A stretch of 35,203 nucleotides of DNA from Lactococcus cremoris subsp. cremoris NBRC 100676 (GTDB taxonomy: Bacteria; Bacillota; Bacilli; Lactobacillales; Streptococcaceae), in contig NZ_BCVK01000024.1 of the NCBI RefSeq assembly GCF_001591705.1, positions 1 through 35,203 of the forward strand, in the 5' to 3' direction. A program made the position numbers and the translations under genes. This document shows, one piece after another, positions 7,451 through 34,208 of this stretch; the stretch's first letter is position 1; each line of letters opens with the position of its first letter. The notes under the pieces are model-generated. The model saw only the letters and a list, made by a program, of their open reading frames with translations. It was not told where the DNA came from and did no database searches.

Positions 7451-7538
7451 ATTTCAACTTTCTTTTTAGAAAATTTCTTTAATTTTTATACTAATTCTTT
7501 TATTAACTTATAATAAGAATGATTTTTACTGACAGTTC

Positions 7539-7559
7539 TTCTAGTCTATCAGACTAGAA
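7539..7559 (-). other. Hairpin in the parC leader
   Basis: TTCTAGTCT and AGACTAGAA form a perfect 9-base-pair stem with a 3-base loop about 90 bases before the parC ATG. No T run follows, so it does not look like a terminator. It may stabilise the leader or be a protein site. The rest of 7451-7683 is AT-rich. A likely extended -10 (TGGTAGAAT on the minus strand) lies near 7580, and two further copies of the TACTGAC word lie at 7527 and 7661. Confidence 0.4.
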
Positions 7560-7683
7560 TATAAAATCACTTTTCCTATTCTACCACAAAATTAAAACGA
7601 AAAAAACTGACACATTATTTATTGGGCAAAATCGATAAGATTGTTTATCTCTTGAAAAACTACTGACAGCTTAATTTGAAGTG

Positions 7684-7718
7684 AAAAAATTACTGACAAA
7701 GCTGTCAGTAAATTTTTT
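7684..7718 (-). terminator. Terminator downstream of the elaA-type gene, built from the TACTGAC word
   Basis: AAAAAATTACTGACA (7684-7698) and TGTCAGTAAATTTTTT (7703-7718) form a long hairpin with U-tracts on both strands. It ends the operon that runs from the isochorismatase-like gene. The stem is made of the window's recurrent TTACTGACA word in inverted orientation. Confidence 0.85.
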
Positions 7719-7722
7719 CATC

Positions 7723-8172
7723 TTAGAAGTTCAATATCATATTTACATGTTTAATATCATCTTCATAAAAGGGTTCTGAATTTTCAACAAAGCCAAATGA
7801 AGCATAAAAATCTCGTAAATAATATTGGGCCTCGATAGTCACTGCTGCTTCCCCATTTTCTTTGAGAACTTCCAAAGCCTTATCAATAAGACCACGTCCA
7901 AGATTTTGTCCACGAAATTCAGGATTAACAAGGACACGACCAATCGAAGCCTCATTAAATGAAATCCCTTGTGGAAGAAGACGACAAAGGGCCATCAACT
8001 CTCCTTTGTCATTTTCTAACCAAAGATGTTGCGCCACTTGGTCTTTACCGTCAAGTTCTTGGTAAGGACAATTTTGCTCCACAACAAAGACAGCCGTACG
8101 CAAACTCAAAAGTTGATACATCTCATCTGTTGTTAATTGATTAAAGTTTTTTAATTTCCAAATTGCTGTCAT
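7723..8172 (-). CDS. ElaA-type GNAT family N-acetyltransferase
   Basis: A 149-residue single-domain acetyltransferase of the ElaA subgroup of the GNAT fold, which uses acetyl-CoA; the substrate is unknown. The N-terminal LLSLRTAVFVVEQNCPYQELDGKDQ is the usual ElaA opening. The acetyl-CoA pyrophosphate loop is RGQNLGRGLIDKAL (about 97-110, R/Q-x-x-G-x-G/A), preceded by the strand IGRVLVNPEF. The C-terminal YLRDFYASFGF is the common Y-x-x-x-G-F ending. Its ATG overlaps the stop of the preceding exonuclease gene by four bases (ATGA), so it is translationally coupled as the last gene of that operon. Confidence 0.85.
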   Translation of the reverse strand: MTAIWKLKNFNQLTTDEMYQLLSLRTAVFVVEQNCPYQELDGKDQVAQHLWLENDKGELMALCRLLPQGISFNEASIGRVLVNPEFRGQNLGRGLIDKALEVLKENGEAAVTIEAQYYLRDFYASFGFVENSEPFYEDDIKHVNMILNF

Positions 8173-9002
8173 TTCTCTTCCTCCATAATCGTGACGAAAT
8201 TGGCTTTTTGCATTTCTTTTAGAAAATCAGAATGAATTTTCACTTTTTCTGAATTATGTAAACGAATTTTTAGACTTGAACCTGTAGAATATTCTCGTTC
8301 AACCGAAATTCCTAGGACTTCAAACCGTTCCCATTTTCGTTCCAAATTTTGCTGATAGTAGACCAAAGCCTTGGTAATGGGTAAGTTTAACTTTCGACGA
8401 ATGCTGTCAGTAATTTCATCAGAACTGTCACCAAATAAATCTAACTGACCAAGTTCGTCAGCAACTTCTGATTCTACTGATCGCTCAACTTCTTCAATTT
8501 TTTGTAAATATTGATAGAGTTTAGCTGTAATTAGACAGTCATTAAGGGCATCATGCGAACGTAAATCATTCATTTCCAGTAAATCTTTGAAATTTTCCAA
8601 AGCATAAGAGGACATGGTCAGAAGTTTTTTACTTTCTGCTAAAGTATCATAGACACGAAAAGCTTCAACATCGGTGATGGCGCAATCAATAATCGCTTGA
8701 TAGAGGAATGAAATATCAAAAGGTGCGTTATGTGCCACTAATAAATGACCTTTGATAAAATCTAAAAAATCGGGTAAGATTTCTTCAATCGTTGGTTGAT
8801 TTAACAAATCCGCTGGTTTTATCCCAGTCAATTGGGTAATTTCTGTCGAAACATAAGAACGTTGGTTTTTTACTAATTGATTGAATCTGGCAAGTTCTTG
8901 ATTATTTTCATCATATTTTACCGCACCAATTTGAATAATTTCATTTTTTTGTGCAGAAAATCCTGTGGTTTCAAAGTCAAATACGACATATTTCTCAGAC
9001 AT
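8169..9002 (-). CDS. DEDDh 3'-5' exonuclease (DnaQ/PolC-epsilon-like)
   Basis: A 277-residue exonuclease of the RNase T/DnaQ superfamily. Exo I is VVFDFETTGF with catalytic D9 and E11. Exo II is HNAPFDISFL (about 92-101). Exo III is RSHDALNDCLITAKLY, with the histidine and aspartate of the DEDDh type. Residues beyond about 180 (from the acidic DELGQLDLFGDSSDE onward) form an extra C-terminal region of about 95 residues that I do not recognise; it resembles an accessory beta-rich domain. It is not the replicative proofreading subunit in low-GC Gram-positives, where PolC carries its own, so a repair or RNA-processing role is more likely. It overlaps the preceding gene by 8 bases and the next gene by 4. 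Confidence 0.85.
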   Translation of the reverse strand: MSEKYVVFDFETTGFSAQKNEIIQIGAVKYDENNQELARFNQLVKNQRSYVSTEITQLTGIKPADLLNQPTIEEILPDFLDFIKGHLLVAHNAPFDISFLYQAIIDCAITDVEAFRVYDTLAESKKLLTMSSYALENFKDLLEMNDLRSHDALNDCLITAKLYQYLQKIEEVERSVESEVADELGQLDLFGDSSDEITDSIRRKLNLPITKALVYYQQNLERKWERFEVLGISVEREYSTGSSLKIRLHNSEKVKIHSDFLKEMQKANFVTIMEEEK

Positions 9003-9531
9003 TTTTATTTAGTTCCTCAATAATTTCTTTTGTTTTAATTACTTTCCCAAATTTAGGAATTTCTGTCAGCGTTTTCTGGAAGTTTTTTAACTTTCTGTCA
9101 GCGCAAGCATCTTCGATAATGAAAGACTCAAAAGCAGATTCAGCTCCATCCTTGGCTGTTTTGACGACACCATTACTCAACGAAACCCCAGTAACATAGA
9201 TTTTACTGACAGAAAGTTTTTTTAGCTCATCAGCTAAGCCATAGTCTGATTGTTTAAATGCTGATGGGCCAAATTTTACCAACTTATGCAGTCTTGAATT
9301 ATTATCTAATTCATCTTGTAGAATCATGCGAGAAAAAGCTTCTTTAGCGGATTTCCAAAGTATTTTTGGCTCAACTGTCACTAAATAAACCGGCTGATTT
9401 GCTTGGTCAAAAGCGGCAATCAGCGCTCGATTGTTCTCAATGATTTTATCCCAACCATAAGGTTCAGCTTTTTTTGCTAATTTCTTAATGAATGCTTGTA
9501 AATCAATAATAATTAATGCTGAATTTTGCAT
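8995..9531 (-). CDS. Isochorismatase-fold (cysteine hydrolase) protein with the catalytic Cys replaced
   Basis: A 178-residue protein with the isochorismatase/nicotinamidase fold. The first catalytic position, Asp10, is present in SALIIIDLQ, and Lys86 is present in LVKFGPSAF. The nucleophile motif is altered: in IYVTGVSLSNGVVKTAKDGA the residue aligned with the family cysteine (pattern G-x-x-x-x-x-C-V-x-x-T-A) is Gly121. As written it should lack the normal cysteine hydrolase chemistry, so nicotinamidase activity should not be assumed. It follows parE after a terminator and heads a tightly overlapping three-gene unit with the exonuclease and the acetyltransferase. Confidence 0.75.
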   Translation of the reverse strand: MQNSALIIIDLQAFIKKLAKKAEPYGWDKIIENNRALIAAFDQANQPVYLVTVEPKILWKSAKEAFSRMILQDELDNNSRLHKLVKFGPSAFKQSDYGLADELKKLSVSKIYVTGVSLSNGVVKTAKDGAESAFESFIIEDACADRKLKNFQKTLTEIPKFGKVIKTKEIIEELNKNV

Positions 9532-9594
9532 TGCTTATCTTTTCGTTATAAGAAAGTCTTTTAGATTTTCTTTCATTTTATCACAAATTAAAGC

Positions 9595-9616
9595 AAAAAA
9601 CCTCGAAAAATCGAGG
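9595..9616 (-). terminator. Terminator downstream of parE
   Basis: On the minus strand: CCTCGA TTTT TCGAGG followed by TTTTTTG. A compact GC-rich hairpin with a clean U-tract, located about 20 bases after the parE stop. Confidence 0.9.
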
Positions 9617-9637
9617 TAATTATTTGAATAAAATTGT

Positions 9638-11572
9638 TTAGAAAGCTGTATCTTCTTCCATCGTAAATTTCACATTATTTTCAATCCATTTACGACGTGG
9701 TTCAACTTTATCACCCATCAGCACGGAAACACGCTTTTCTGCTTGCGCTGCATCATCAATTGTTACTTGAATCAGTGTCCGAGTTTCTGGGTCCATCGTT
9801 GTTTCCCAAAGTTGGTCAGCGTTCATTTCCCCCAGTCCTTTATAACGTTGAAGATTTGCATTTTTACCAAACTGCTTACGAAGTTCTGCTAGCTCGCCAT
9901 CTGTCCAAGCGTACCCTATCTTCTCTTTTTTTCCTTTTCCTTCACTCATTTTATAAAGTGGAGGAAGCGCAATATAAACATGTCCAGCTTCTACAAGAGG
10001 TTTCATATAGCGATAGAAGAAAGTCAATAAAAGTGTTTGAATGTGTGCCCCATCAGTATCCGCATCGGTCATGATAATCACTTTATCATAATTACGGTCA
10101 GCCAAAGTAAAATCTGCACCAACACCAGCACCAATAGTGTAAATCATGGTATTGATTTCCTCATTTTTGAGAATATCTTGCATTTTTGCTTTTTCGGTAT
10201 TAATTACTTTCCCACGTAAAGGCAAAATAGCTTGAAATTTTCGGTCTCGTCCTTGTTTGGCAGAGCCGCCCGCTGAATCCCCTTCGACCAAATAAAGTTC
10301 ATTTTTATTTGGATTTTTTGTTTGGGCAGGTGTTAATTTCCCTGACAAAAGACCCTTATCTTTTTTAGATTTTTTACCATTTCGAGAATCTTCGCGTGCT
10401 TTACGAGCTGCTTCACGTGCTTCACGCGCTTTGATTGCTTTACGAATCAGGTTTTGAGCCAATTCACCATTTTCCATCAAATAAAAACTTAATTTTTCAG
10501 AAACGAGGCTGTCCACCACTGGACGAGCCAAAGGTGAACCCAATTTATCTTTGGTTTGTCCTTCAAATTGGAGATGTTCCTCTGGAATTAATACAGATAA
10601 AACTGCCGTTAAACCTTCACGATAATCAGACCCTTCCAGATTTTTATCTTTATCTTTAAGCAAATTGACTTTACGAGCATATTCGTTCATTGCCTTAGTG
10701 ATAGCTGTTTTTAAACCTGCTTCGTGCGTTCCGCCATCTTTAGTCCGAACATTATTAACAAACGAAAGAATATTTTCTGAATAGCCATCATTATACTGGA
10801 GGGCAACTTCAACTTCAAAACCATCTTGCTTTCCTTCAAAATAAAGAACTGGAGTTAAGCTATCTTTATCTTCATTCAGGTAGGCTACAAAATCCTGAAC
10901 TCCATTTTCATAATGAAATTCTTCTTTTTCATCCGTACGTTTATCTTCAAGACTAATCGTTACTTCTTTCAAAAGAAAGGCCGATTCATTTAAACGCTCA
11001 GAGATGATGTTATATTTAAATTCAGTTGTTGAAAAAATAGTAGAATCGGGCATGAAAGTCACTTTTGTCCCCGTTTTTGATTTCGGAGCTTTCCCTATTT
11101 TTTCCAAAGTAGTTGCTGGATGTCCTCCATTTTCAAAACGTTGGCGATAAACAGTCCCATCACGAGTGATTTCAACTTCTAACCAAGTAGAAAGAGCATT
11201 TACCACCGAAGATCCTACACCATGCAATCCACCAGAAGTTTTATATCCCCCTTGACCAAATTTACCACCAGCATGAAGAATAGTGAAAATAACCTCAACA
11301 GTTGGAATTCCCATCGCGTGTTTTCCGACAGGCATTCCGCGCCCTTCATCTTCTACAGATAAAGAACCATCAGCATTAATGGTCACTGTAATTTTATTCC
11401 CAAAACCAGATAAGGCCTCATCGACTGCATTATCTACAATTTCCCAAACCAAATGGTGCAAACCTGTTCCATCAGTTGATCCGATATACATCCCTGGGCG
11501 CTTTCTGACCGCGTCCAAACCTTCAAGGACCTGAATTGCACTGTCATCGTAATTATTAATATCTATTACCAT
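9638..11572 (-). CDS. parE: DNA topoisomerase IV subunit B
   Basis: ParE is the ATPase subunit of topoisomerase IV. The 644-residue protein has the GHKL ATPase features in order: IQVLEGLDAVRKRPGMYIG near the N-terminus, E44 and N48 in LVWEIVDNAVDEA, the DEGRGMPVG loop (about 75-83), and GGLHGVGSSVVNAL (about 114-127). The TOPRIM domain has YLVEGDSAGGSAKQGRD and, near residue 500, the metal-binding DADTDGAHIQ. The end (RYKGLGEMNADQLWETTMDP) is the usual type IIA subunit B tail. The normal length and intact motifs argue for a functional gene. It is transcribed from a consensus promoter about 95 bases upstream; plsY is divergent. Confidence 0.97.
   Translation of the reverse strand: MVIDINNYDDSAIQVLEGLDAVRKRPGMYIGSTDGTGLHHLVWEIVDNAVDEALSGFGNKITVTINADGSLSVEDEGRGMPVGKHAMGIPTVEVIFTILHAGGKFGQGGYKTSGGLHGVGSSVVNALSTWLEVEITRDGTVYRQRFENGGHPATTLEKIGKAPKSKTGTKVTFMPDSTIFSTTEFKYNIISERLNESAFLLKEVTISLEDKRTDEKEEFHYENGVQDFVAYLNEDKDSLTPVLYFEGKQDGFEVEVALQYNDGYSENILSFVNNVRTKDGGTHEAGLKTAITKAMNEYARKVNLLKDKDKNLEGSDYREGLTAVLSVLIPEEHLQFEGQTKDKLGSPLARPVVDSLVSEKLSFYLMENGELAQNLIRKAIKAREAREAARKAREDSRNGKKSKKDKGLLSGKLTPAQTKNPNKNELYLVEGDSAGGSAKQGRDRKFQAILPLRGKVINTEKAKMQDILKNEEINTMIYTIGAGVGADFTLADRNYDKVIIMTDADTDGAHIQTLLLTFFYRYMKPLVEAGHVYIALPPLYKMSEGKGKKEKIGYAWTDGELAELRKQFGKNANLQRYKGLGEMNADQLWETTMDPETRTLIQVTIDDAAQAEKRVSVLMGDKVEPRRKWIENNVKFTMEEDTAF
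10423..10429 (-). other. Chi-like heptamer
   Basis: GCGCGTG on the minus strand within parE, same orientation as the copies at 814 and 21525. Confidence 0.45.
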
Positions 11573-11666
11573 CTATTTTCCTCTCATCGAAAGCCCATAT
11601 CTTTTATCAGCAAGATCATCACTCGCTTTGTTCGCAATTTACTGACAAAAAATATTCATCTTGATT

Positions 11667-11695
11667 ATTGTACCTTGTTCAGAACGCTTTGTCAA
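11667..11695 (-). promoter_or_regulatory. Promoter of parE
   Basis: On the minus strand: TTGACA (11690-11695), 17-base spacer, TACAAT (11667-11672). The leader between it and the ATG at 11572 contains one TACTGAC word (11640). Confidence 0.8.
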
Positions 11696-11788
11696 AGGAC
11701 TGCTGAGAATTTCAAAAGCTAATCGTAAGATATTTGCTTCAATTAAGCCAATAAGTTTCAATATTGTCAGTAATCTTTAATAAAAATA

Positions 11789-11797
11789 TGGTATAAT
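11789..11797 (+). promoter_or_regulatory. Extended -10 promoter of plsY
   Basis: TGGTATAAT at 11789-11797 with no good -35 at the usual distance; GGAG lies 7-10 bases before the ATG at 11851. The 278-base gap 11573-11850 therefore holds the divergent parE and plsY promoters and two copies of the TACTGAC word (11640 and 11766, inverted relative to each other). Confidence 0.6.
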
Positions 11798-11850
11798 TGT
11801 ACAGTTAAAAGAGATTATCGATTTTAAACGAAATAAACTTCGGAGAACTT

Positions 11851-12492: not shown

Positions 12493-12507
12493 CACAATAT
12501 ATTGTGT
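12492..12507. promoter_or_regulatory. NrdR-box candidate 1, also possible plsY terminator
   Basis: GCACAATATATTGTGT is nearly identical to the NrdR-box consensus (ACACWATATATWGTGT type) and is a perfect palindrome over CACAATATATTGTG. It sits 41 bases centre to centre from box 2, about four helical turns. A T-rich run follows, so the same palindrome may help end plsY transcription, although a loop-less palindrome makes a poor RNA hairpin. Confidence 0.6.
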
Positions 12508-12532
12508 TTTTTTCTTTTTTTTACATAATTTA

Positions 12533-12548: not shown

Positions 12549-12555
12549 CTTTAAT

Positions 12556-12883: not shown

Positions 12884-12884
12884 T

Positions 12885-13443: not shown

Positions 13444-15612
13444 ATGTCTCTAAAACAACTTAAAGATGTAACTTATTTCAAGCTCAATAACGAGATTAAC
13501 ATCCCCGTGAATGGTAGCATTCCTCTTGCCAAAGATAAAGAAGCAATTACCGCTTTTTTCAAAGAGAATGTTGAACCTAATCGTTATGAAGCTGACACTT
13601 ATATCGATAAACTTAATTGGTTAGTTAAAGAAGAATACCTAGAAGCTGAATTTCTAGAAAAATATAAGCCAGAATTTATCACAAATCTTCGTAAAGAATT
13701 GAGTAAATTTGAATTTCATTTTGATTCATTTATGGCTGCTTATAAATTTTATAATCAATATGCCATGAAAAACAATGACGGTTCACTCTATCTTGAAGAT
13801 TTTGAAGACCGTGTGTTAATGAATGCTTTATACATGGCTGACGGTGATGAAAAATTAGCTAATAATCTTGCTTTTGCAATGATTAATCGTCGTTATCAAC
13901 CGGCTACTCCAACTTTCTTAAATGCTGGACGTAAACGTCGTGGTGAATTCGTTTCTTGTTTTCTTTTACAATTGACTGATGATATGAATTCAATTGGACG
14001 GACGATTAATTCTGCCTTACAACTTTCTAAAAATGGTGGTGGTGTTGGTCTTAATTTAACTAATCTGCGTGCTGCTGGTGCACCAATCAAAGGATATGAT
14101 GGAGTTGCCGCTGGTGTTGTGCCTGTCATGAAACTTTTTGAAGATGCTTTTTCTTATGCCAATCAATTGGGGCAACGACAAGGTGCTGGTGTAGTTTATT
14201 TATCACTTTTCCATCCAGATATCATGGAATTTTTATCAACTAAAAAAGAAAATGCGGACGAAAAAATCCGTGTTAAAACACTCTCACTTGGTGTTACTGT
14301 TCCTGATAAATTCTACGAATTGGTTAAAAAAGGCGAAACAATGTATCTTTTTGAACCTTACTTCGTTGAAAAATATTATGGTAAACCTTTTGCCGAAGTC
14401 GATATTACAGCTGAATACGACAAGATGGTGGCTAACCCAGAAATTCGTAAAACACCAATTAATGCCCGTGAGCTTGAACAAGAACTTTCAAAACTTCAAC
14501 AAGAATCTGGTTATCCTTATATCGTGAATGTCGATACGGTCAATCAAGCTAATCCTGTTGATGGGGTGATTTCAATGTCAAACCTTTGTTCTGAAATCCT
14601 TCAAGTTCAAACACCTTCTGTTTTGAATGATGACCAAACTTATAAAGTCGTTGGAACTGACGTTGCTTGTAACTTAGGTTCAACTAATGTCTTAAATATG
14701 ATGACTTCTAGTGATGAATTTGGAACTTCTGTTGAATCAATGGTTCGTGCTTTAACTTTCATTTCTGAAACTTCAAACTTGGATACTGTTCCAACTGTTC
14801 GTAAAGGAAACGATGAAATGCATGCCATTGGGCTTGGAGCAATGGGCTTGCATTCTTTCTTAGCTCAAAATCAAATTCATTATGATAGTAAAGAAGCCGT
14901 TGAATTCACAAGTGTCTATTTCATGTTGTTGAATTACTACACTTTGGTGGCTTCAAATAAATTGGCTGTTGAAAAAGGGGCTAGCTTCAAGAATTTTGAA
15001 AAATCGGCCTATGATGATGGTTCTTATTTTGATAAATACTTGACTCATGATTATTTTGCAGCTGTTTCTCCTAAAGTTCAAGAACTTTTCAAAGGAATTG
15101 CCGTTCCAACAATCGCTGATTGGACTGAATTACGCGATACTGTAAAAACTTCTGGTCTTTATAATTCTTATCGTATGGCTGTAGCTCCAAATGGTTCTAT
15201 TTCTTATATCAATGACTGCTCTTCTTCTATCCACCCAATCGTCAATCGGATTGAAGAACGCCAAGAAAAGAAAGTTGGGAAAATTTATTATCCAGCTGCT
15301 GGACTTGCCACTGAAACAATTCCTTACTACAAATCAGCTTATGATACTGATATGCGCTCGGTCATTGATGTTTATGCGGCTGCTACAGAACACGTTGACC
15401 AAGGATTGTCACTCACATTATTTATGCGTTCAACTTTACCAGAAGGTTTGTATGAATGGAAAGTTGCAAATAATAAAATGACCACACGTGATTTGTCTAT
15501 TTTGCGTAACTATGCTTACAAAAAAGGAATTAAAACAATTTATTACATTCGTACATTTACTGATGACCAAGAGGAAGTCGGTGCTAACCAATGTGAAAGT
15601 TGTGTCATTTAA
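13444..15612 (+). CDS. nrdE: Class Ib ribonucleoside-diphosphate reductase alpha subunit NrdE
   Basis: NrdE is the catalytic subunit that reduces ribonucleoside diphosphates to deoxyribonucleotides. The 722-residue protein lacks an N-terminal ATP cone, as expected for class Ib. Visible features are RYQPATPTFLNAGRKRRGEFVSC... with the first active-site cysteine, the loop NGGGVGLNLTNLRA, NLCSEI with the radical cysteine region followed by VACNLGS holding the second redox cysteine, and the C-terminal shuttle pair CESC in NQCESCVI. Good ribosome site AAAAGGAG. It is separated from nrdF by an unusually long 404-base spacer, whereas these two genes are commonly close together. Confidence 0.97.
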   Translation: MSLKQLKDVTYFKLNNEINIPVNGSIPLAKDKEAITAFFKENVEPNRYEADTYIDKLNWLVKEEYLEAEFLEKYKPEFITNLRKELSKFEFHFDSFMAAYKFYNQYAMKNNDGSLYLEDFEDRVLMNALYMADGDEKLANNLAFAMINRRYQPATPTFLNAGRKRRGEFVSCFLLQLTDDMNSIGRTINSALQLSKNGGGVGLNLTNLRAAGAPIKGYDGVAAGVVPVMKLFEDAFSYANQLGQRQGAGVVYLSLFHPDIMEFLSTKKENADEKIRVKTLSLGVTVPDKFYELVKKGETMYLFEPYFVEKYYGKPFAEVDITAEYDKMVANPEIRKTPINARELEQELSKLQQESGYPYIVNVDTVNQANPVDGVISMSNLCSEILQVQTPSVLNDDQTYKVVGTDVACNLGSTNVLNMMTSSDEFGTSVESMVRALTFISETSNLDTVPTVRKGNDEMHAIGLGAMGLHSFLAQNQIHYDSKEAVEFTSVYFMLLNYYTLVASNKLAVEKGASFKNFEKSAYDDGSYFDKYLTHDYFAAVSPKVQELFKGIAVPTIADWTELRDTVKTSGLYNSYRMAVAPNGSISYINDCSSSIHPIVNRIEERQEKKVGKIYYPAAGLATETIPYYKSAYDTDMRSVIDVYAAATEHVDQGLSLTLFMRSTLPEGLYEWKVANNKMTTRDLSILRNYAYKKGIKTIYYIRTFTDDQEEVGANQCESCVI

Positions 15613-16016
15613 TAAAACATAAACAATGATGCTAAAGCACCTATTGTTTATGCGAAAGCCGCTAGAGCGAACTTTCTATTTTCTTACTTGTTTTCATTCA
15701 TTGAAGTATCGTCAATGAATGGAAACGACGTAAACAAGATAAACAATAATGCTAAAGAATCTAGTGTTTATACGAAGGCCGCTAGAGCGGACTTTCTACT
15801 TTCTTACTTGTTTCATTTTTCCGAAAAATCGTCGGTCAAAGTGCGACGTATAACTATCAACATGACCTAGGGTCTAAAATAATTTACTGACGCCAAACTT
15901 TTGATAAATTATCGAAAGTTTTTGGTGTCATGAGCTAGCTATTTTTACTGACGACATTGTCAGTGATAAAAAATTTACTGACAGTAATTGTCGGTAGCTA
16001 AAAAGAGAGAAATAAT
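15613..16016 (+). repeat. Structured nrdE-nrdF spacer with a two-copy 80-base repeat
   Basis: No gene is seen here. Two imperfect copies of an about 80-base unit start at 15619 and 15739 (spacing 120). Each holds an ATAAACAAT...TTGTTTAT-type arm pair (15619-15627/15643-15651; 15739-15747/15763-15771) and a GAAAG-CCGC-TAGA-GCG-CTTTC hairpin (15654-15676; 15774-15796). Between the copies, CATTCATTGA and TCAATGAATG make a perfect 10-base-pair stem (15695-15721). Downstream is a long imperfect hairpin (15889-15929) and inverted TACTGAC words (15946-15964; another copy at 15976). The strand is uncertain but the element is transcribed if nrdE reads through to nrdF. Confidence 0.7.
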
Positions 16017-16994
16017 ATGTCTGAAACTGAAAATCTTACTGTCCCCACTTATTATAGTGCGATTGACTGGAATTCTATTGAAGATTCAATCGATAAATAC
16101 ACTTGGGAGAAATTAACTAGCCAATTCTGGTTGGATACACGTGTTCCTGTCTCTAATGACTTGGACGATTGGCGTAAATTGCCACAGCTTGAGCGTGATA
16201 CTTTTGCTAAAGCCTTCGCTGGATTGACTCTCCTTGATACTTTACAATCAGTAGATGGAGCTGAAGTCCTCAAACATGATGCGAGAACTCCTCAAGAAAT
16301 TGCTTGTTTCAATAATATCCAATTTATGGAGTCAGTCCATGCTAAATCTTATTCTACAATTTTCTCAACTTTAAATACTAAAAAGGAAATTGAAGAACTC
16401 TTTAACTGGGTGGATACCAATGTCTATATGCAGACAAAGGCTGAAATCATCAATAAGATTTATGAATCTGGCACCGCTCTTCAAAAGAAAGTGGCTTCTG
16501 TATTTCTTGAAACTTGCCTCTTCTATTCAGGATTCTATACACCTTTACTTTATCTTGGAAATAATAAGATGATTAACTCAGCAGAAATTATCAAGTTGAT
16601 TATTCGTGATGAATCTGTACACGGTACTTATATTGGTTATAAATTCCAGCTTGGTTTTAATGAATTATCTGAAGATGAGCAAAGTGAATTCCGTGATTGG
16701 ATGTATGAGCTCCTCTACAAACTCTACGAAAATGAAGAAAACTACTCTCATTTACTTTATGATAAAGTGGGTTGGACTGATGAAGTCTTAACTTTCTTAC
16801 GCTATAATGCTAATAAGGCCTTAATGAATCTCGGACAAGACCCACTTTTCCCTGATACTGCAGCCGATGTCAATCCTGTTGTCATGAACGGAATTTCAAC
16901 TTCTTCATCAAACCATGACTTCTTCTCACAAGTTGGTAATTCTTACCTCCTTGGTGAAGTGGAAGCAATGTCTGACGAAGATTATGACATTTAA
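16017..16994 (+). CDS. nrdF: Class Ib ribonucleoside-diphosphate reductase beta subunit NrdF
   Basis: NrdF carries the metal-tyrosyl radical cofactor that drives NrdE. The 325-residue protein has the ferritin-like dimetal ligands in recognisable helices: D-E positions in DTLQSVDGAEVLKHD, E-x-x-H in FMESVHAKSYS, and the second E-x-x-H in RDESVHGTYIG. The radical tyrosine is expected in the SYSTIF segment. The C-terminus (VGNSYLLGEVEAMSDEDYDI) is acidic, as needed for binding NrdE. The ribosome site is GAGAGAA. It follows the structured spacer and is terminated by a very strong hairpin. Confidence 0.96.
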   Translation: MSETENLTVPTYYSAIDWNSIEDSIDKYTWEKLTSQFWLDTRVPVSNDLDDWRKLPQLERDTFAKAFAGLTLLDTLQSVDGAEVLKHDARTPQEIACFNNIQFMESVHAKSYSTIFSTLNTKKEIEELFNWVDTNVYMQTKAEIINKIYESGTALQKKVASVFLETCLFYSGFYTPLLYLGNNKMINSAEIIKLIIRDESVHGTYIGYKFQLGFNELSEDEQSEFRDWMYELLYKLYENEENYSHLLYDKVGWTDEVLTFLRYNANKALMNLGQDPLFPDTAADVNPVVMNGISTSSSNHDFFSQVGNSYLLGEVEAMSDEDYDI

Positions 16995-17007: not shown

Positions 17008-17057
17008 AAAGTCTGTCAGTAATTAAGTTTATAACTTAATTACTGACAGACTTTTTA
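17008..17057. terminator. Very long terminator after nrdF
   Basis: AGTCTGTCAGTAATTAAGTT pairs perfectly with its complement across a 3-base loop (17010-17052), with A and T runs outside. The arms contain the recurrent TACTGAC word in inverted orientation. It works for nrdF and could also act on the minus strand. Confidence 0.9.
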
Positions 17058-18724: not shown

Positions 18725-18952
18725 AGTACCTTTCCTGTGTTAGATTTGACTGACAATTACTAACGAATGAGTCAGCAACTTATTAGTAAAATCCATATTT
18801 TAATCACTATGGATGCTTTTAAGAGGATTTTATCAAAAAACAAGAAAACGGGCACAGCACTGTACCTTTTTTATTTCTCGATAAGACTTCTCTTCCATTC
18901 TACTGACAGTAATAAATAAATTTCCCTCAGCAGAACTACTAATAATTATATC
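18725..18952 (-). other. ftsE leader region, no gene
   Basis: The 329-base gap between prfB and ftsE (18725-19053) has no convincing gene. On the minus strand it holds an extended -10 (TGATATAAT) just after the prfB terminator, and a second candidate (TGATAAAAT) around 18830. Between them lies a small hairpin (GGTACAGTGCTGTGCC, about 18853-18868) followed by a T-rich run. One TACTGAC word is at 18901. I infer one or two ftsE promoters, with a possible attenuating hairpin between them. Confidence 0.4.
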
Positions 18953-20151: not shown

Positions 20152-20157
20152 AGTTGC

Positions 20158-20166
20158 ATTATACCA
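20158..20166 (-). promoter_or_regulatory. Extended -10 of prfB, predicted leaderless start
   Basis: On the minus strand TGGTATAAT is followed by GCAACT and then the prfB ATG. With a start site 7 bases past the hexamer, transcription would begin at the A of ATG. No ribosome site is seen upstream, and the -35 region is weak, as is usual for extended -10 promoters. Confidence 0.6.
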
Positions 20167-20273
20167 TATTCACCGCCTATAAGCCTAACCTAAGCTATTC
20201 AATAGAAAATGGACTTAAACTTTTTTATAATAGGAATCTCAAAAATTATATATTAGATAGAATTACTGACACA

Positions 20274-20282
20274 TGCTATAAT
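20274..20282 (+). promoter_or_regulatory. Extended -10 of the phosphoesterase gene, predicted leaderless start
   Basis: TGCTATAAT (20274-20282), then TTGACT, then ATG at 20289. The spacing predicts transcription starting at the A of the ATG. There is no Shine-Dalgarno. A TACTGAC word lies just upstream (20264). Confidence 0.6.
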
Positions 20283-20288
20283 TTGACT

Positions 20289-21194
20289 ATGACTAAAAAA
20301 AGACGATTGGCTATAATTTCAGATTTTCATTTGGACAGTAATCACTTTTCTATAGAGGAAATTGAACTTTTTATATCCCTTCTAAATGATTTACAAATTA
20401 CAGATTTACATTTTGCTGGAGATATTTCTAATGATTTACATAATATCTCTGAACCTTTTTTTCATCAATTAGAATCACTGACAGATTTATCAGTCACTTT
20501 TAGCCTTGGAAATCATGATATGGTTGAACTTTCTGAGGAAGAAATCTCTGTCAGTAATTTTAAAGTGAAAACTTTTGCATCGACCGCCTTTGTCAGTTTT
20601 CATGGTTGGTACGACTATTCCTTTATGAAAGAAAAAGCCGATTTTCAAAAAATTATCGCTTTTAAAAATTCCTTTTATTTTGACCGAAAAATCCATCGCC
20701 AATTTGATGATATCAAGACGACAGCTATCGAATTAGAGAAACTAGAAACTTTACTGACAGAATTGTCAGCAAAGCCAGAGATTGAGAGAATTATTGTCAG
20801 CACACATTTTGTCCCTCATCAGCAATTTATCATTAATACCCGCTATGAAAAATTTGCTCGCTTTAATGCTTATTTGGGCTCTCAGCATTTCCATGAACTT
20901 TTTTGCCACTTTCCAAAAGTTACGGACGTCATTTTTGGACATCTTCATCAAAGACGAACTCCCCTTAAGATTGATAACATTCTTTACCATGCGAGACCTC
21001 TTGGATATCCTTACGAATGGCAAATGGTCAATGAATTTTTAGCCAAATATCCACAATATCAGATTGCTGAAAATTGGCATTTGAGAAAACGTTATAATGC
21101 GCTTCGTAAAAGTTCCGATTGGCAAGCATTTCGAAGAGAAAACTTGATGAAGGAATTTCAATCGTCTTTGACAATTTTTGACTTAGACGACTAA
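20289..21194 (+). CDS. Calcineurin-like metallophosphoesterase
   Basis: A 301-residue phosphoesterase with the five metal-binding blocks in order: DFHLD (ISDFHLDSNH), GDISND, GNHD (SLGNHDMVEL), the histidine in VSTHFVPH, and GHLH (IFGHLHQRRT). The substrate is unknown: the fold covers nucleotide, protein and phospholipid phosphatases. I start it at ATG 20289 (MTKKRRLAIISDFH), not the in-frame ATG at 20154, because the promoter lies between the two and the family begins at the beta strand before DFH. The gene contains two exact TACTGAC/GTCAGTA words (20550, 20752). Divergent from prfB. Confidence 0.85.
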   Translation: MTKKRRLAIISDFHLDSNHFSIEEIELFISLLNDLQITDLHFAGDISNDLHNISEPFFHQLESLTDLSVTFSLGNHDMVELSEEEISVSNFKVKTFASTAFVSFHGWYDYSFMKEKADFQKIIAFKNSFYFDRKIHRQFDDIKTTAIELEKLETLLTELSAKPEIERIIVSTHFVPHQQFIINTRYEKFARFNAYLGSQHFHELFCHFPKVTDVIFGHLHQRRTPLKIDNILYHARPLGYPYEWQMVNEFLAKYPQYQIAENWHLRKRYNALRKSSDWQAFRRENLMKEFQSSLTIFDLDD

Positions 21195-21888: not shown

Positions 21889-21917
21889 TTACTGACTTTT
21901 TGTCAGTAACTTTTTTC
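21887..21917. terminator. Bidirectional terminator between the DUF402 gene and the FNT gene
   Basis: AGTTACTGAC and GTCAGTAACT form a 10-base-pair stem (21887-21911) with T runs following. It includes the last base pairs of both converging genes: the DUF402 TAG and the FNT TGA lie inside the stem. The arms are again the inverted TACTGAC word. Confidence 0.85.
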
Positions 21918-25574: not shown

Positions 25575-25643
25575 TTTGTTATATGTAATTTCTATAAAAA
25601 ATTTACTGACAGATTACTCTGTCAGCTAGAAAGTGTGTTTGTA

Positions 25644-27215: not shown

Positions 27216-27248
27216 AAAATTACTGACAAATCCTGTCAGTAATTTTTT
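27216..27248 (-). terminator. Hairpin between yvcK and whiA, built from the TACTGAC word
   Basis: AAAATTACTGACA and TGTCAGTAATTTT pair around a 5-base loop, with a T run on the + strand and a shorter one on the minus strand. For the minus-strand operon it would partly terminate or protect the yvcK 3' end before whiA. Confidence 0.6.
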
Positions 27249-28230
27249 AATGTCTAAATTCTTGACGTTGAGAAATGGCAACAATTTCTTTGGCAACAGC
27301 TTCTCCATTATGGAAGGCACCACCATCACGCAGTTCCAGAAAATTATTAGAAATTACATTGACTTCTTCAGCCTTCAATGATGCAAAATCATGATCAACT
27401 TGGACCAAATACTCATCAAATTTATTTGTATTCATATATTCTTCTGGCACTTCTTGAATATTCACAAGAACTGTATCAATCACTTTTGTTCCAATATGTT
27501 CATTCAAAACACGAACGTGGTCAGCATCCGTGAAATGCTCTGTTTCACCACGTTGAGTCATAATATTACAAACATAGATAATTTTAGCCGATGTTTTCCA
27601 TAAAGCCTCACAGATTTCGGGAATAACAATATTAGGTAAAATTGAAGTGAAAAGTGAACCCGGTCCCAAAACAATCGTATCTGCTTCCATAATTGATTTA
27701 ACAACATTTCGTGAAGCAATTGGGCTTTCGCCATTGACAGTTTGAGTCAGGTAAACATGGTCAATCAAGCCTTTATAGCCTGCAATTTGGCTCTCACCGC
27801 TTACCTCATGACTATCTTTAAAAACGGCATGTAATGTCAATGCTGCATCAGATGAAGGGTAAATTTTCCCTTCAACATGAAAGAATTGAGCCAAGGTTTG
27901 AATCGCACGATAAGTTGATCCTTGCATTTCAGAAATTGCGGCAATAATTAAATTCCCAAGAGGGTGTCCTGCCAATTCTCCATCAGATTTATCAAATCGA
28001 TACTGTAAAATATCGGCATAAAATTTAGGCATGTCTGACATTGCAATCAATACATTTCGCAAATCACCAGGAGGAGCGATACTGACTGCTGAACGAATCC
28101 GTCCAGAAGAACCTCCATCATCCGCAACGGTTACAATCGCTGTTAAATCAACTTTTTCTTTACGTAATGCTTTTAGAACGACAGGAATTCCGGTCCCACC
28201 ACCGATAACGACAACTTTAGGATTGCTCAT
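27247..28230 (-). CDS. yvcK: YvcK family protein (gluconeogenesis factor, CofD-like)
   Basis: A 327-residue protein of the YvcK/CofD-like family. In Bacillus it is needed for growth on gluconeogenic carbon sources and for cell shape, and it binds UDP-sugars. Visible motifs are the N-terminal nucleotide loop [29 protein letters not shown] (about 35-47), PPGDLRNVL and [11 protein letters not shown]. Length is normal. Its ATG overlaps the rapZ TGA by four bases (ATGA). Confidence 0.94.
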
Positions 28231-29114: not shown

Positions 29115-29178
29115 CTCTTTCCTCCATTTTCATCTTATCATTCCAAATGATAATTTTTGCTCTATCTTAGTTTCTAAA

Positions 29179-30624: not shown

Positions 30625-30659
30625 AATAATTTCTCCCAATCCCCCAGTTTACTCCTTCC

Positions 30660-30668
30660 ATTATATCA
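30660..30668 (-). promoter_or_regulatory. Extended -10 promoter of cls
   Basis: TGATATAAT on the minus strand, about 36 bases before the cls ATG. The -35 region is weak. The upstream flank is the terminator region of the flp operon. Confidence 0.55.
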
Positions 30669-30735
30669 AAAAACAAGCCCTTTTGTTGATAATCCTCATT
30701 GTTTACTTAGGTTTCATTTTTTCATTAAAAATAAA

Positions 30736-30805
30736 ATACTGACAGAATCAATTCGTCAGTATTTTTTTGATTATATTTTTTCCGTCAGTAAATAAATTTA
30801 CTGAC
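30736..30805 (-). terminator. Double hairpin after the flp gene
   Basis: Two consecutive hairpins are each made of inverted TACTGAC words. 30784-30805 is GTCAGTAAA-TAAA-TTTACTGAC. 30736-30762 is ATACTGAC...GTCAGTAT, followed on the minus strand by TTTATTTTT. The second has the U-tract and is the probable terminator of the flp operon. Confidence 0.8.
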
Positions 30806-30815
30806 AGAAATTTGT

Positions 30816-31505
30816 CTAAGCATATTCATCTTCAAGTCTTTCATAATCTAAAATTTTGAAAGATTTTCCGTAATGCTCGACCAATCCCTTCTCTTCTAAG
30901 AGACGAAGTTTCCGGCTGATTGTTTCAGGAGTCGTGCCAATAAATGCTGACAAATCCTTCAAAGTCATTGGAATTTGTACATAAGATCCGTCAGTAATTT
31001 TAGCCAAATCCAATAAATAGTTAGCAAGACGCATTTCTACAGATTCCATCATCAAAAACTTGGCTTGTTGCTCCGTTTCATTTTGTTTCACAGCGTTCAT
31101 TTCAAGAAGACGGAGGGAAAGTTGAGGTTTAGCGAGTAAGAGTTCCGTAAAATCGGATTTTCTGACAAAACAAATCGTACTATCCGATAGAGCTTCGCCA
31201 AATAAGTTTTTATTGACAAGGCCGAAAATGGATTTTTCTCCTTCATATCCACCAGGTTCAATCACTCTTAATAGCTGTTCTTTTCCAGTGGATGAGATTT
31301 GATATATTTTTAAACTTCCTTTGGCAACTATTGTCAAAAGTGGCTCTGCCGATGGTTGGATAACCGTTTCACCTTTTTTGACTTTTTTGTGTTGAACAAT
31401 TTCTTCAACTTGAGCAAGCTCATCTGGACTCAAGTCAAAAAAAAGCGGGACTAGCTGGATACAATGGTGGTCACTTAAATGCTCATCAAAATCTTTAATC
31501 GTCAT
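30816..31505 (-). CDS. flp: FNR-like Crp-family regulator (Flp)
   Basis: A 229-residue regulator of the Crp/Fnr superfamily, matching the lactococcal FNR-like proteins FlpA/FlpB; I cannot say which paralogue. Residues about 17-140 form the cyclic-nucleotide-type beta-barrel. The C-terminal helix-turn-helix (LKDLSAFIGTTPETISRKLRLLEEKG) carries the E-T-I-S-R recognition helix typical of proteins that bind TTGAT half-sites. It lacks the Fe-S cysteine cluster of enteric FNR but has Cys15 and Cys112, the spacing expected for a redox disulfide in FLP proteins. In L. lactis these proteins are linked to zinc content and oxidative stress. Start: ATG 31505 after GAGGAGGAAG, overlapping the upstream gene. 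Confidence 0.93.
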   Translation of the reverse strand: MTIKDFDEHLSDHHCIQLVPLFFDLSPDELAQVEEIVQHKKVKKGETVIQPSAEPLLTIVAKGSLKIYQISSTGKEQLLRVIEPGGYEGEKSIFGLVNKNLFGEALSDSTICFVRKSDFTELLLAKPQLSLRLLEMNAVKQNETEQQAKFLMMESVEMRLANYLLDLAKITDGSYVQIPMTLKDLSAFIGTTPETISRKLRLLEEKGLVEHYGKSFKILDYERLEDEYA

Positions 31506-32034
31506 CTTCCTCCTCAATAAATTCGCCTATCGTTTTTCCAAGTTCTCCTGCAAAATAGCGAATAATAGACAAATTATAGCCGTAAATCTTGCGAATTGCA
31601 AGTTCTAAGCTAAATTTTTCTTCCTTTTGTGCTAGTTTAATCGCTCGTCCGATAAATAAATTTTGGTTCTGAAAATCATTGATAAAGTTTTCTATCAATG
31701 CTTCATCTGTCCAATACTTGGCTTTGGGGTCATTTTCAATGAATTTATGATTGCTGACAAATTCGTCAAGCGTCGTTGGGACCAATTCATTTTCATCAAG
31801 TAACTGCTCAGAAATAAGATAAAACCATTCGTCTTCTTTTAGGGCAATTTCACGAAATTTTATGCGATAATCTGCACTTTTAGCATAAAGCCCTGCCTGC
31901 ATCAGACTTATTTTTTCATAAAAAATATTAGACAAAACATGACTCAACATCGCACCAGCAGTTGGTTTATGGTGGTCAATCTCAGATTTTTTGACTTCTG
32001 CTTCATATTTTTCATCAATACTTACTTCAATCAT
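31495..32034 (-). CDS. Dps/ferritin-like protein upstream of flp (orfY-type)
   Basis: A 179-residue protein corresponding in position to orfY of the described lactococcal flp operons. Its sequence resembles the four-helix Dps fold: AGAMLSHVLSNIFYEKISLMQAGLYAKS, then EWFYLISEQLLDENELVPTTLDEFV (compare the Dps D-x-I-A-E-R...L-G...P-T-T-L-x-E-Y block), then DEALIENFINDFQNQ. The usual ferroxidase histidines and the Asp of D-x-x-x-E are not conserved as far as I can see, so iron oxidation is doubtful. The tail is very acidic (EFIEEEDDD). The ATG at 32034 follows AAGGAGGG. It overlaps flp by 11 bases. Confidence 0.7.
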   Translation of the reverse strand: MIEVSIDEKYEAEVKKSEIDHHKPTAGAMLSHVLSNIFYEKISLMQAGLYAKSADYRIKFREIALKEDEWFYLISEQLLDENELVPTTLDEFVSNHKFIENDPKAKYWTDEALIENFINDFQNQNLFIGRAIKLAQKEEKFSLELAIRKIYGYNLSIIRYFAGELGKTIGEFIEEEDDD

Positions 32035-32048
32035 TTTTCCCTCCTTGC

Positions 32049-32276
32049 TCAAACTAGCGTAACTTTTGAGATTTGCACGGGATATCCGAGCTTTTCAACT
32101 TTAGTGACTAATTCGTCAGATTTGACGATATTTTCGTCAAACTCAGCTTTGACTTTTGAGGCATTAAACAAAACTTTGGCAGAAATCACTCCCTTTGTCC
32201 CAGTCATGGACCCTTCGATTTTTGCAAGACAAGATGGGCAGCTTAGCTCATCAAGTTTCATAATTATTTTAGACAT
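32049..32276 (-). CDS. Heavy-metal-associated (HMA) domain protein, orfX-type
   Basis: A 75-residue single HMA domain with the metal-binding pair Cys13-x-x-Cys16 in DELSCPSCLAKIE and the usual beta-alpha-beta continuation (KGVISAKVLFNASKVKAEFDE). Such proteins bind Cu(I), Zn or Cd and deliver it to P-type ATPases. The methionine often found before the first cysteine of copper chaperones (MxCxxC) is replaced here (LSCPSC), so copper cannot be assumed. First gene of the HMA-Dps-like-Flp operon, matching orfX of the described L. lactis flp operons, and positioned behind an FNR box. The metal ATPase just upstream has no HMA domain of its own and is a natural partner. Confidence 0.88.
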   Translation of the reverse strand: MSKIIMKLDELSCPSCLAKIEGSMTGTKGVISAKVLFNASKVKAEFDENIVKSDELVTKVEKLGYPVQISKVTLV

Positions 32277-32307
32277 CTTTTTTCCTTCTTTCTTTAACTT
32301 TTCTCTT

Positions 32308-32349
32308 ATTTTACCGCTATTCTAATCATAAAAAATTGATTTGTATCAA
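32308..32349 (-). promoter_or_regulatory. FNR/Flp box and promoter of the flp operon
   Basis: TTGAT-TTGT-ATCAA (32336-32349) is a perfect FNR-type site. The -10 of the operon is TAAAAT (minus strand, 32308-32313). With a start 7 bases past the -10, +1 is 32301 and the box is centred at -41.5, the class II activator position. There is no good -35, as expected for an activated promoter. The box lies across the end of the ATPase gene. Confidence 0.8.
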
Positions 32350-34208
32350 TTAATCTTTTTATTTTTATAAGAAATCAAGCGCATCCCATTTAAAATAACC
32401 ATCAAAATCGACGCTTCATGAATAAACATTCCCGTACCCATATTGACAAAATTTGGAACAAATCCTGTCCCACCTAAAATCAAGCTGACAAGTAGAAAAA
32501 TGACGACAGCAATTGCAAGCCCAATATTTTGACGCATATTTCTCACAGTATTGTTTGCCAATCCGTAAGCCTGAACTAACTCAGCAAAACTAGACTTCAT
32601 CAATACAACATCAGACGTTTCGATCGCAATATCTGTACCAGAACCCATGGCAATCCCAATATCGGCAAGGGCAAGCGACGGACTATCATTAATCCCATCA
32701 CCAATAAAAGCAAGCTTATGTCCTGACGATTTAAATTCACTGACAATTCTTGCTTTATCTTCTGGCAGCAGATTCGCATGAACTTCATCAATTCCCAATT
32801 CCTTTGCAACATTTCTGGCAGTCACTTCATTATCGCCGGTCAACATCACCATTTTCTTCATTCCATTACGCCTTAGGGCTGTCAGCGCTTTTTTAACTTC
32901 TGGACGGATTTCGTCAGCAATTCCGTAGATTAATTTGAGCTGACCAGCTTTTGCAACAAGCACGATCGACATCCCTTTTTCTTCTACTTCTCTCAAACTT
33001 TGTTTTTGAGAATCTGTCAGTAAAATTTTATGGGCTGTCAGTAATTTTTCATTTCCAATCAATAGGTCATCAGCAATAATTCCCTGACCTTTAATCACAT
33101 CAAGCTCTTCAATTTTTCCCTTTGTAGCACCACTCCCAATAAACCTGACAATCGCAGTCGCAAGTGGGTGATTAGACTGACTTTCAATCGTAGATATTTT
33201 CGTCAGTAAATTTTCGGAAATTTCGCCAAACTCTTTAACTAATACAACCTCTGTTTCACCTTTTGTCAGTGTTCCTGTTTTATCAAAAAGTAAGGTATCG
33301 ATCCGACTAAAAGTGTCCATCACCTCTCCTCCTTTAATCAATAGACCGTTTTTCGCTCCATTACCAATCGCAGCAACATTAGATACCGGCGCACCAATCA
33401 CTAAGGCTCCTGGGCACCCCAATACCAAAATCGTAATGGCAAGCTCCAAATTTTGACTCACGAGCCAAGTTAAAATGGCAATCAAAAGCACGACTGGTGT
33501 GTAATATTTTGCAAAACGGTCAATAAATTTTTCAGCAGGTGATTTAGTATCTTGTGCTTCTTCAACTAATTCGATGATTTTTCCAAAAGTTGTATCTTCG
33601 CCCACTTTTTCAGCAGTCACATAGAGGATTCCATTTACTAAAATACTCCCTGAAAATACTTGCTCGCCACTGTTTTTCTCAATTTCTCGAGACTCTCCTG
33701 TGATGGCGGCTTCATTGATAAAAGCAGAACCGCCGTAAACTCGACCATCTACAGGCACCTGACTTCCTGTTTTTATCAGAAGCATATCGCCTACTTTGAC
33801 TTTGTCAATATCAATCTCTCTTCCATCCGCAAAAAGCGCTCTTGTCGGCGCCATTTGCGACAGTTCTTTAATTGATGACCGCGTTTTTTCAAGCGTTCTT
33901 TTTTCCAGATAAGTTCCGAAAGTAAATAGGAAAGTTACAATGGCAGATTCTTCAAATTCTCTAATGAAAATCGCACCCACTACCGCAATCGTAACCAACA
34001 AGTCAATTGAAATTTGTTTGAATTTTAAAGCCTGATAAGCGTGGATTCCAATCGGTAACCCACCCAAAATTGAAGCGATGAGCATTGTTAAATTCCAAGC
34101 TAATTCATTAGCAAAAACATATTTCCCCAAGAAACCAAACCCAATCAATATCGCTGATGCCAGCATCAAGCGATTTGCATTTTTTTGTAACCATTTTTGA
34201 AAAGCCAT
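32346..34208 (-). CDS. P1B-type heavy-metal-transporting ATPase
   Basis: A 620-residue metal-pumping P-type ATPase with all core motifs: the TGES actuator loop (AAITGESREIEK), the phosphorylation site DKTGTLTKG, the P1B-specific HP in QSNHPLATAIV, the nucleotide-binding GDNEVTARNVAKELGI, and the hinge GDGINDSPSLALADIGIAMGSG. The transmembrane metal motif is CPG (VLGCPGALVIGAPVSN) rather than the CPC of classical Cu and Zn pumps, so the substrate is uncertain; Zn, Cd or Co are all possible. It has no N-terminal HMA domain, but a separate HMA protein is encoded next. I start at ATG 34208 (MAFQKWLQKN) after AAAGGATA, not at the upstream in-frame ATG, because the promoter lies between them. Confidence 0.92.
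   Translation of the reverse strand: MAFQKWLQKNANRLMLASAILIGFGFLGKYVFANELAWNLTMLIASILGGLPIGIHAYQALKFKQISIDLLVTIAVVGAIFIREFEESAIVTFLFTFGTYLEKRTLEKTRSSIKELSQMAPTRALFADGREIDIDKVKVGDMLLIKTGSQVPVDGRVYGGSAFINEAAITGESREIEKNSGEQVFSGSILVNGILYVTAEKVGEDTTFGKIIELVEEAQDTKSPAEKFIDRFAKYYTPVVLLIAILTWLVSQNLELAITILVLGCPGALVIGAPVSNVAAIGNGAKNGLLIKGGEVMDTFSRIDTLLFDKTGTLTKGETEVVLVKEFGEISENLLTKISTIESQSNHPLATAIVRFIGSGATKGKIEELDVIKGQGIIADDLLIGNEKLLTAHKILLTDSQKQSLREVEEKGMSIVLVAKAGQLKLIYGIADEIRPEVKKALTALRRNGMKKMVMLTGDNEVTARNVAKELGIDEVHANLLPEDKARIVSEFKSSGHKLAFIGDGINDSPSLALADIGIAMGSGTDIAIETSDVVLMKSSFAELVQAYGLANNTVRNMRQNIGLAIAVVIFLLVSLILGGTGFVPNFVNMGTGMFIHEASILMVILNGMRLISYKNKKIN

Follow-up and report, generated by a model that had tools for sequence, protein, structure and literature searches.

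The 35,203-nucleotide stretch analysed here (the window; positions 1 to 35,203 of contig NZ_BCVK01000024.1, deposited as Lactococcus cremoris subsp. cremoris NBRC 100676) raises the question of why a seven-base word, TACTGAC or its complement GTCAGTA, recurs in it so often. The window contains 34 exact copies, against 1.9 expected from 100 dinucleotide shuffles (maximum 5) and 4.3 expected from base composition. The original prediction, made from the sequence of the window, had counted about 30 copies against a chance expectation of about 4; all 30 of its coordinates are exact, and four copies had been overlooked (at 236, 5489, 6158 and 28080). By the map of open reading frames (ORFs) of at least 90 aa, 12 of the 34 copies lie within genes and 22 outside. 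The genomic signature described below is that of a double-stranded word in very large excess on both strands, whether inside or outside genes, near chance in the counted phages, conserved between close species and spelled in dialects around a common core. On balance, we consider it rather probable that the word is a DNA uptake sequence, serving self-recognition in natural transformation in one branch of Lactococcus.

The excess extends to the whole genome. In the 2.34-Mb genome to which the window belongs (G000 in our set), TACTGAC occurs 689 and 764 times on the two strands (1453 copies), against 207 and 206 (413) for the reversed word used as control, and the longer form TTACTGACAG occurs 252 times forward and 295 times in reverse (547), against 4 and 2 (6). 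A 435-kb sample of G000 holds 109 copies of TTACTGACAG, where dinucleotide composition predicts 0.64. Genome-wide counts near expectation, one of two outcomes named in advance as fatal to the idea, were therefore not what we found. Eighty solo intergenic copies from G000 and a second genome, G007, yield the consensus AAAAwTTACTGACAGAA. One-base variants of TTACTGACAG inside CTGAC are rare (0 to 6 each, and 12 for the change of the final C to T, against 109 exact copies); the commonest one-base variant changes the last base from G to A (46 copies). Judged from sequence, G000 appears to be L. cremoris-like and G007 L. lactis-like; both share with a printed L. lactis gapB promoter primer its first 21 genome-matching bases, without a mismatch.

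The word is also enriched in coding DNA. When codons were shuffled among synonyms within each gene of at least 600 nt, TACTGACA stood 6- to 11-fold above the shuffles, on both strands, in six sampled genomes: 65 copies versus 10.2 expected in G000 (sense 44 versus 6.7, antisense 21 versus 3.5), 83 versus 10.1 in G007 (59 versus 5.6, 24 versus 4.5), 30 versus 3.8 in G011 (12 versus 1.7, 18 versus 2.1), 29 versus 3.4 in G001 (15 versus 1.7, 14 versus 1.7), 12 versus 1.3 in L. taiwanensis (G016; 4 versus 0.6, 8 versus 0.7) and 14 versus 1.3 in L. hircilactis (G005; 5 versus 0.3, 9 versus 1.0). The coding copies use both of the reading frames that are free of an in-frame stop. Because they exceed the synonymous shuffles on both strands, the word is not only a terminator repeat, and the second fatal outcome, enrichment confined to terminator stems, is likewise contradicted. 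Among 154 solo coding copies, TTACTGACA is kept and weak A-richness is seen on both sides; flanks beyond about six bases on either side are almost unshared, so these copies are not insertions.

An unbiased scan of coding 8-mers placed the word or one of its dialects at rank 1 in 10 of 16 sampled genomes (G000, G007, G011, G001, G016, G005, G012, L. fujiensis G002, L. nasutitermitis G009 and Lactococcus sp. dk101 G013). It fell outside the nine words listed for each of the five garvieae-branch genomes, G003, G004, L. ileimucosae (G006), L. garvieae (G008) and L. petauri (G010), and it was lacking in L. termiticola (G017), where unrelated palindromes came out on top. In three loci of this last genome (L118-L120), the palindromic words TCAGCTGA and TGAGCTCA are prominent in coding DNA. 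Bare CTGAC is itself raised in coding DNA, with 698 copies versus 341 in G000 (2.0-fold), 639 versus 330 in G007 (1.9-fold) and 1.4- to 1.9-fold excesses in G011, G001, G016, G002, G005, G012 and G013; values in the five garvieae-branch genomes range from 0.97- to 1.20-fold.

Sites are conserved between close species. In 67.6 kb of orthologous DNA of G000 and G007 (85.8% identical), 20 of 24 sites in one genome have the identical eight-base word in the other, and in the reverse direction 20 of 33 do; among 3775 composition-matched 8-mers, 35.8% are kept. For the pair G011 and G001 (93.4% identity), it is kept at 10 of 11 sites both ways, against 60.9% for the control.

Phages of these hosts carry the word at near-chance levels. 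Across seven Lactococcus phages, whole or in part (260.7 kb), TACTGAC occurs 33 times versus 23.0 expected (1.4-fold), against 286 versus 26.2 (10.9-fold) in the 435-kb host sample of G000; the corresponding figures are 5 versus 3.1 and 160 versus 3.7 for TTACTGACA, and 13 versus 6.5 (2-fold) and 155 versus 9.8 (15.8-fold) for CTGACAGA. TACTGAC is at chance in the lytic phages and about 2-fold enriched in the three temperate ones. Along the G007 chromosome, the word was present in 18 of 20 evenly spread stretches. The 20-kb stretch L057, which is without TTACTGACA, is matched over 64-76% of its length by TP901-1-like phages among the matches listed, so that the scarcity expected of an uptake sequence in phage DNA is seen in seven phages and one prophage stretch. 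A second 20-kb stretch without TTACTGACA (L051; 1.32-1.34 Mb, near the skew switch) carries RecA-like, UmuC-like, sugar-modifying and transporter genes; it gave no phage match, and it looks acquired.

Within the genus, the word marks a branch. Counts of TTACTGACAG against the reversed control are 824/11 in G007, 547/6 in G000, 344/8 in G016, 274/5 in G011 and 256/7 in G001; lower counts are found in G005 (56), G012 (40), G013 (29), G009 (16) and G002 (15), and the remaining 8 of the 18 Lactococcus genomes have 2-8, like the control. None of 227 family genomes outside the genus exceeds 17 copies, which rules out a word common to the lactic acid bacteria of the family. Counting CTGACAGA over 335 genomes revealed one strongly enriched genome outside the genus (G045, 994 versus 18 for the control), with equal counts in G249, which holds locus L192 of a termite-gut Streptococcaceae metagenome-assembled genome (MAG). 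The other non-genus genomes, compared by eye, are less than 4-fold enriched, many Streptococcus genomes being at 1- to 2.7-fold. In a tree of 30 rows built from ComGA only (L. insecticola was left out, its sequence containing a stop), 11 rows of one Lactococcus branch (support 83/84) each have a form of the word. The weak members of this branch, by CTGACAGA, are L. fujiensis (5.2-fold) and MAG BP5 (3.9-fold), the latter showing no dialect in its one 15-kb locus. The garvieae group, in which L. formosensis is covered by a 21-kb locus only, and L. termiticola, whose placement is unsure, form the other branch (81/84), without the word.

The spelling differs among the word-bearing genomes, mostly around a CTGAC-like core. 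By k-mer scans, the dialects are TTACTGACAGA in G000, G007 and G016; GTACTGACAG in G001, G011 and G005; GCACTGACA and GTGCTGACA in G002 and G013, the latter also having GAGCTGACA; TTACTGACGAA and AATGCTGACG in G012; and TTTTGACAG in G009. From one 20-kb locus each and the CTGACAGA counts, we assign GCGCTGACAGA to L192 (coding GCTGACAG, 15 versus 0.8 expected in the locus) and TTCTGACGG to L. insecticola (L193; coding TCTGACG, 23 versus 4.7). In G011, other words that are over-represented (GGACAGCG, CTATCTCCGC and GACAGCGTAG; L061-L070) make up a second set, which may be a separate dispersed repeat.

Between genes, the word frequently forms inverted pairs: 43 in 435 kb of G000, 27 of them A/T-tailed, and 52 in 400 kb of G007, 22 of them A/T-tailed. 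Convergent pairs at a spacing of 4-8, resembling terminators, prevail in G000, G007, G012 and G016, although a local repeat (8 copies of CTGACAGAGC) may be among the 16 such pairs in G016. Intergenic copies per kb in G000 and G007, respectively, are 5.06 and 5.52 between convergent genes, 2.16 and 2.18 between tandem genes and 0.49 and 0.23 between divergent genes, a ranking that fits the co-option of uptake sequences as terminators described for Neisseria and Pasteurellaceae in excerpts of PMC1852404. Clusters of the word are spaced near randomly (coefficient of variation about 1.1) and not regularly. One inverted pair appears in the accessible text of an L. lactis genome paper as a 'CRISPR consensus' for strain Lac3, with no Cas proteins detected (PMC10151293); this is probably a misread terminator repeat, which suggests that the word went unrecognised there. 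In some papers that name Lactococcus, TACTGACAG is printed within primers or as this 'CRISPR consensus'. Our search, with subscription literature mostly outside its reach, turned up no earlier description of a lactococcal word of this kind.

The hosts encode the competence pilus and ComEC, as hosts of an uptake sequence should: matches of ComGA type were found in 18 of 18 Lactococcus genomes and ComEC matches in 17 of 18, that of G003 being a short frame of 386 aa. In L. hircilactis (L096), the comG operon past comGB is seemingly broken by phage-like genes, by eye resembling repressor and recombination-protein genes. L. cremoris KW2 and L. lactis KF147 were transformed when ComX was overproduced, as were 15 of 16 additional L. 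lactis strains; these 16 were tested with a 3.7-kb fusA-rpsL-dacA product of the polymerase chain reaction as donor (PMC11244767). The region of G007 that matches this donor, as far as the source describes it, contains TACTGACAG within TTACTGACAG at L260:3939 and 4216, plus partial copies. Both full copies sit in frame 3662-5035, the gene after rpsL, which from gene order should be dacA. The matching region is that of G007 and not the published fragment, and its word copies are no more than suggestive of preferential uptake.

Among other explanations, the most serious is that the word is the chromosome-wide site of a cytoplasmic dimeric DNA-binding protein, such as a nucleoid organiser, with CTGACA as half-site and TGTCAG-N2-CTGACA as full site in some species. 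We regard this as unlikely on the whole and keep it as a serious rival chiefly because of the dyad. Near-strict in six genomes, with a variable centre, this dyad accounts for 51 of 51 divergent pairs (spacings 0-12) in G013, 22 of 23 in G005, 16 of 17 in G002, 7 of 7 in L192, 18 of 23 in G001 and 33 of 57 in G011, where a further 19 dyads have spacing 4. It is rare, however, in G000 (3), G007 (5) and G012 (1) and unseen in the G016 sample. The sites of known organisers are few in number or restricted to certain regions, whereas the word is in nearly all of the sampled G007 stretches. Its near-chance frequency in the counted phages and the absence of TTACTGACA from the TP901-1-like prophage stretch also argue against such a protein, and a mere binding site would not explain why there are more than 1000 copies, many of them in genes.

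A self-marker of some defence or repair system that uses a nuclease, is distinct from RexAB/Chi and spares DNA bearing the word would account for the contrast between self and phage and for copies across the genome on both strands; we nevertheless think it improbable. The same genomes already contain GCGCGTG, which we take to be the lactococcal Chi site of RexAB, and set against GC skew stretch by stretch in four genomes, this site is polar (leading:lagging 24:4 in G000, 20:2 in G011, 23:8 in G007 and 39:11 in G012), so the word would have to be a second, non-polar marker (77:83, 38:43, 96:66 and 117:95, respectively, in the same stretches). The phages, moreover, are at or somewhat above chance and not below it. 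With Chi as internal positive control, the absent or slight polarity of the word also rules out that it is itself a Chi site, which would show a leading-strand orientation bias, or an FtsK-orienting polar sequence (KOPS) or similar FtsK-type site, which would show strong origin-to-terminus polarity.

Slightly less probable still is an origin in mutation or methylation-repair bias, as conceivable for HIP1 of cyanobacteria, a palindrome that is hyper-abundant, including in genes, and has no known uptake function. Such words show that hyper-abundance can exist without uptake, and in its abundance, also within genes, the lactococcal word is alike; unlike HIP1, it is non-palindromic in the lactis group, where it carries an A-tract, its spelling differs between related species, and phages of its hosts show little excess. 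The idea that the word represents intrinsic terminators or small palindromic repeats of one family, spread as mobile or template repeats with incidental coding copies, draws on the many inverted pairs, some of them A/T-tailed, and is very improbable. As a whole explanation it is refuted by coding copies that far exceed synonymous shuffles on either strand and in each of the two stop-free frames, and that share almost no flank. For the same reasons, a terminator-only repeat is ruled out, and the word is not intergenic-only and paired as a terminator or repetitive extragenic palindromic (REP) element would be.

Several observations weigh against the word being an uptake sequence. The five garvieae-branch genomes are without the word although comG and comEC genes are present in them, so that competence machinery alone does not predict it and competence genes are ruled out as its sole determinant. 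In G000 itself, comGA (L121) and comEC (L127) each appear split over two frames, which makes competence of this strain unlikely unless frame errors in the draft are to blame. The six-genome dyad suits a dimeric binder of any kind. The phages keep a slight excess, seen in CTGACAGA as given above and in TACTGAC (16 versus 8.0) in the three temperate phages, and word-poor stretches of G007 hold ordinary genes besides mobile DNA: L050 and L046, in each of which five frames were scanned, have mixed content with ordinary genes such as that of RNase R. The contrast between core and mobile DNA is therefore only partly shown. Six distant pairs of genomes (73.9-76.8% identity) share 0-4 of 1-22 sites, with controls at 10.8-15.9% and no clear excess, which points to turnover of sites. 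Coding copies in G007 favour the sense strand (59:24, with 5.6:4.5 expected), and the word shows a mild leading-strand excess in the same genome (96:66). CTGAC is mildly raised in coding DNA of L. termiticola, which is without the word (146 versus 107, 1.4-fold); in L. nasutitermitis, with its TTGAC-core dialect, the excess of CTGAC is just 1.2-fold. Finally, in the accessible text of PMC12040237, uptake outside Neisseria and Haemophilus is described as almost always sequence-independent. The likeness to the uptake sequences of Neisseria and Pasteurellaceae drawn by the original prediction holds in the computational tests that were run. Support for it is nevertheless partial, since uptake preference and a receptor lie beyond sequence evidence, relatives that share the competence genes are without the word, and the dyad of several species would also fit another kind of dimeric DNA-binding protein.

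The original prediction had described the first 7.5 kb of the window as free of the word; three copies in fact lie there, one at 236..242 (minus strand) in an 89-aa frame (121-390, minus) outside the ORFs of at least 90 aa and beside riboflavin genes, and two at 5489..5495 and 6158..6164 (both minus) in the DNA_topoisoIV A (topoisomerase IV A) gene (824 aa, 4976-7450, minus). At 121-596, past the riboflavin genes, the minus strand has two overlapping short frames of 89 and 81 aa, perhaps parts of one split gene. The further statement of the original prediction that copies occur inside some genes is borne out by six more genes: an exonuclease (RNase_T) gene (8406..8412, minus), an isochorismatase-family gene (9204..9210, plus, antisense), a Metallophos (metallophosphoesterase) gene (20154-21194, plus) with copies at 20264..20270 and 20752..20758 (both plus) and an antisense copy at 20550..20556 (minus), a CofD-family gene (27247-28230, minus) with an antisense copy at 28080..28086 (plus), a Crp-type regulator gene (30816-31517, minus; copy at 30990..30996, minus) and an E1-E2 ATPase gene (32346-34313, minus) with copies at 33016..33022, 33037..33043 and 33202..33208 (all minus). 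The last of these genes adjoins a DDE transposase gene (34397-34972) with an open frame of 191 aa.

Solo intergenic copies lie at 7527..7533 (plus, within TTACTGACAG), 7661..7667 (plus), 11640..11646 (plus), 11766..11772 (minus), 18901..18907 (plus) and 25604..25610 (plus). As predicted, the nrdE (13444-15612) and nrdF (16017-16994) frames contain no copy; three lie in the gap between them (15885..15891, 15946..15952 and 15976..15982, all plus). A 93-bp segment of nrdE (15153-15245) matches, at 85% identity, a ribonucleotide reductase gene carried by Lactococcus phage P1048. Folding gives hairpins for six inverted pairs (z-scores -4.4 to -11.3), and their structure and position agree with the terminator role proposed for them. 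They comprise an A/T-tailed, terminator-like hairpin at 7691..7710 (7691 plus, 7704 minus; -18.5 kcal/mol, z -5.95); a hairpin with a 22-bp stem after nrdF at 17015..17047 (17015 minus, 17041 plus; -29.4 kcal/mol, z -11.30); A/T-tailed hairpins at 21890..21908, with convergent genes on either side (21890 plus, 21902 minus; -15.3 kcal/mol, z -5.99), at 27221..27241 (27221 plus, 27235 minus; -15.6 kcal/mol, z -8.48) and at 30737..30761 (30737 plus, 30755 minus; -12.5 kcal/mol, z -4.37); and a hairpin at 30784..30805 (30784 minus, 30799 plus; -12.6 kcal/mol, z -5.67).

To our knowledge, a word with the traits described here is known only from the DNA uptake sequence (DUS) of Neisseriaceae and the uptake signal sequence (USS) of Pasteurellaceae. 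The DUS, according to the accessible part of PMC3630211, is likewise a non-palindromic word of about 10 bases, present in hundreds to thousands of copies, limited to a clade and found in terminator pairs, and its dialects share a CTG core as the lactococcal ones mostly share CTGAC; exact 10-mers are fewer in lactococci (547 and 824, against about 1900 in N. meningitidis and N. gonorrhoeae). The lactococcal hosts also differ in being Gram-positive and in the near-strict dyad of some species, and ComP, the receptor in Neisseria, has no known counterpart in them. The USS has an A/T-rich flank, as the lactococcal word has. It also occurs in terminator pairs (excerpts of PMC1852404) and differs from the lactococcal word in sequence; a minor pilin has been predicted as its receptor (PMC12616744, in part). 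Chi, as represented by GCGCGTG, shares with the word an excess in the coding DNA of several of these genomes; it is polar to replication, which the word is not or only slightly.

If the word is indeed an uptake sequence, a DNA-binding part of the competence machinery would bind word-bearing DNA better, minor pilins at the pilus tip being the first candidates for the receptor and ComEA the second. Kin DNA taken up in this way would recombine into the chromosome, and copies would accumulate through biased uptake and recombination; convergent pairs arising by this route may be retained where they serve as transcription terminators, and dialects may reflect drift of receptor specificity. We are evenly divided on the broader proposal of a Gram-positive uptake sequence whose dialects include the dyad TGTCAG-N2-CTGACA. 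On this view, Lactococcus and a related streptococcal lineage from termite guts would recognise kin DNA by its sequence through their competence pili or ComEA; the system would have arisen separately from the two proteobacterial ones and settled again on a short fixed core. An uptake sequence in Lactococcus would, as far as we know, be the first in a Gram-positive bacterium. Sequence-specific uptake is regarded as an outlier, peculiar to Neisseria, Haemophilus and their relatives; the first two are the cases that PMC12040237 names. If the proposal is true, lactococci, as Gram-positive food bacteria, would add a third case of independent origin and change the view of how competence pili choose DNA; receptor evolution could be studied in a monoderm model that has natural dialects, and the word could explain, or help to improve, the erratic natural transformation of lactococci.

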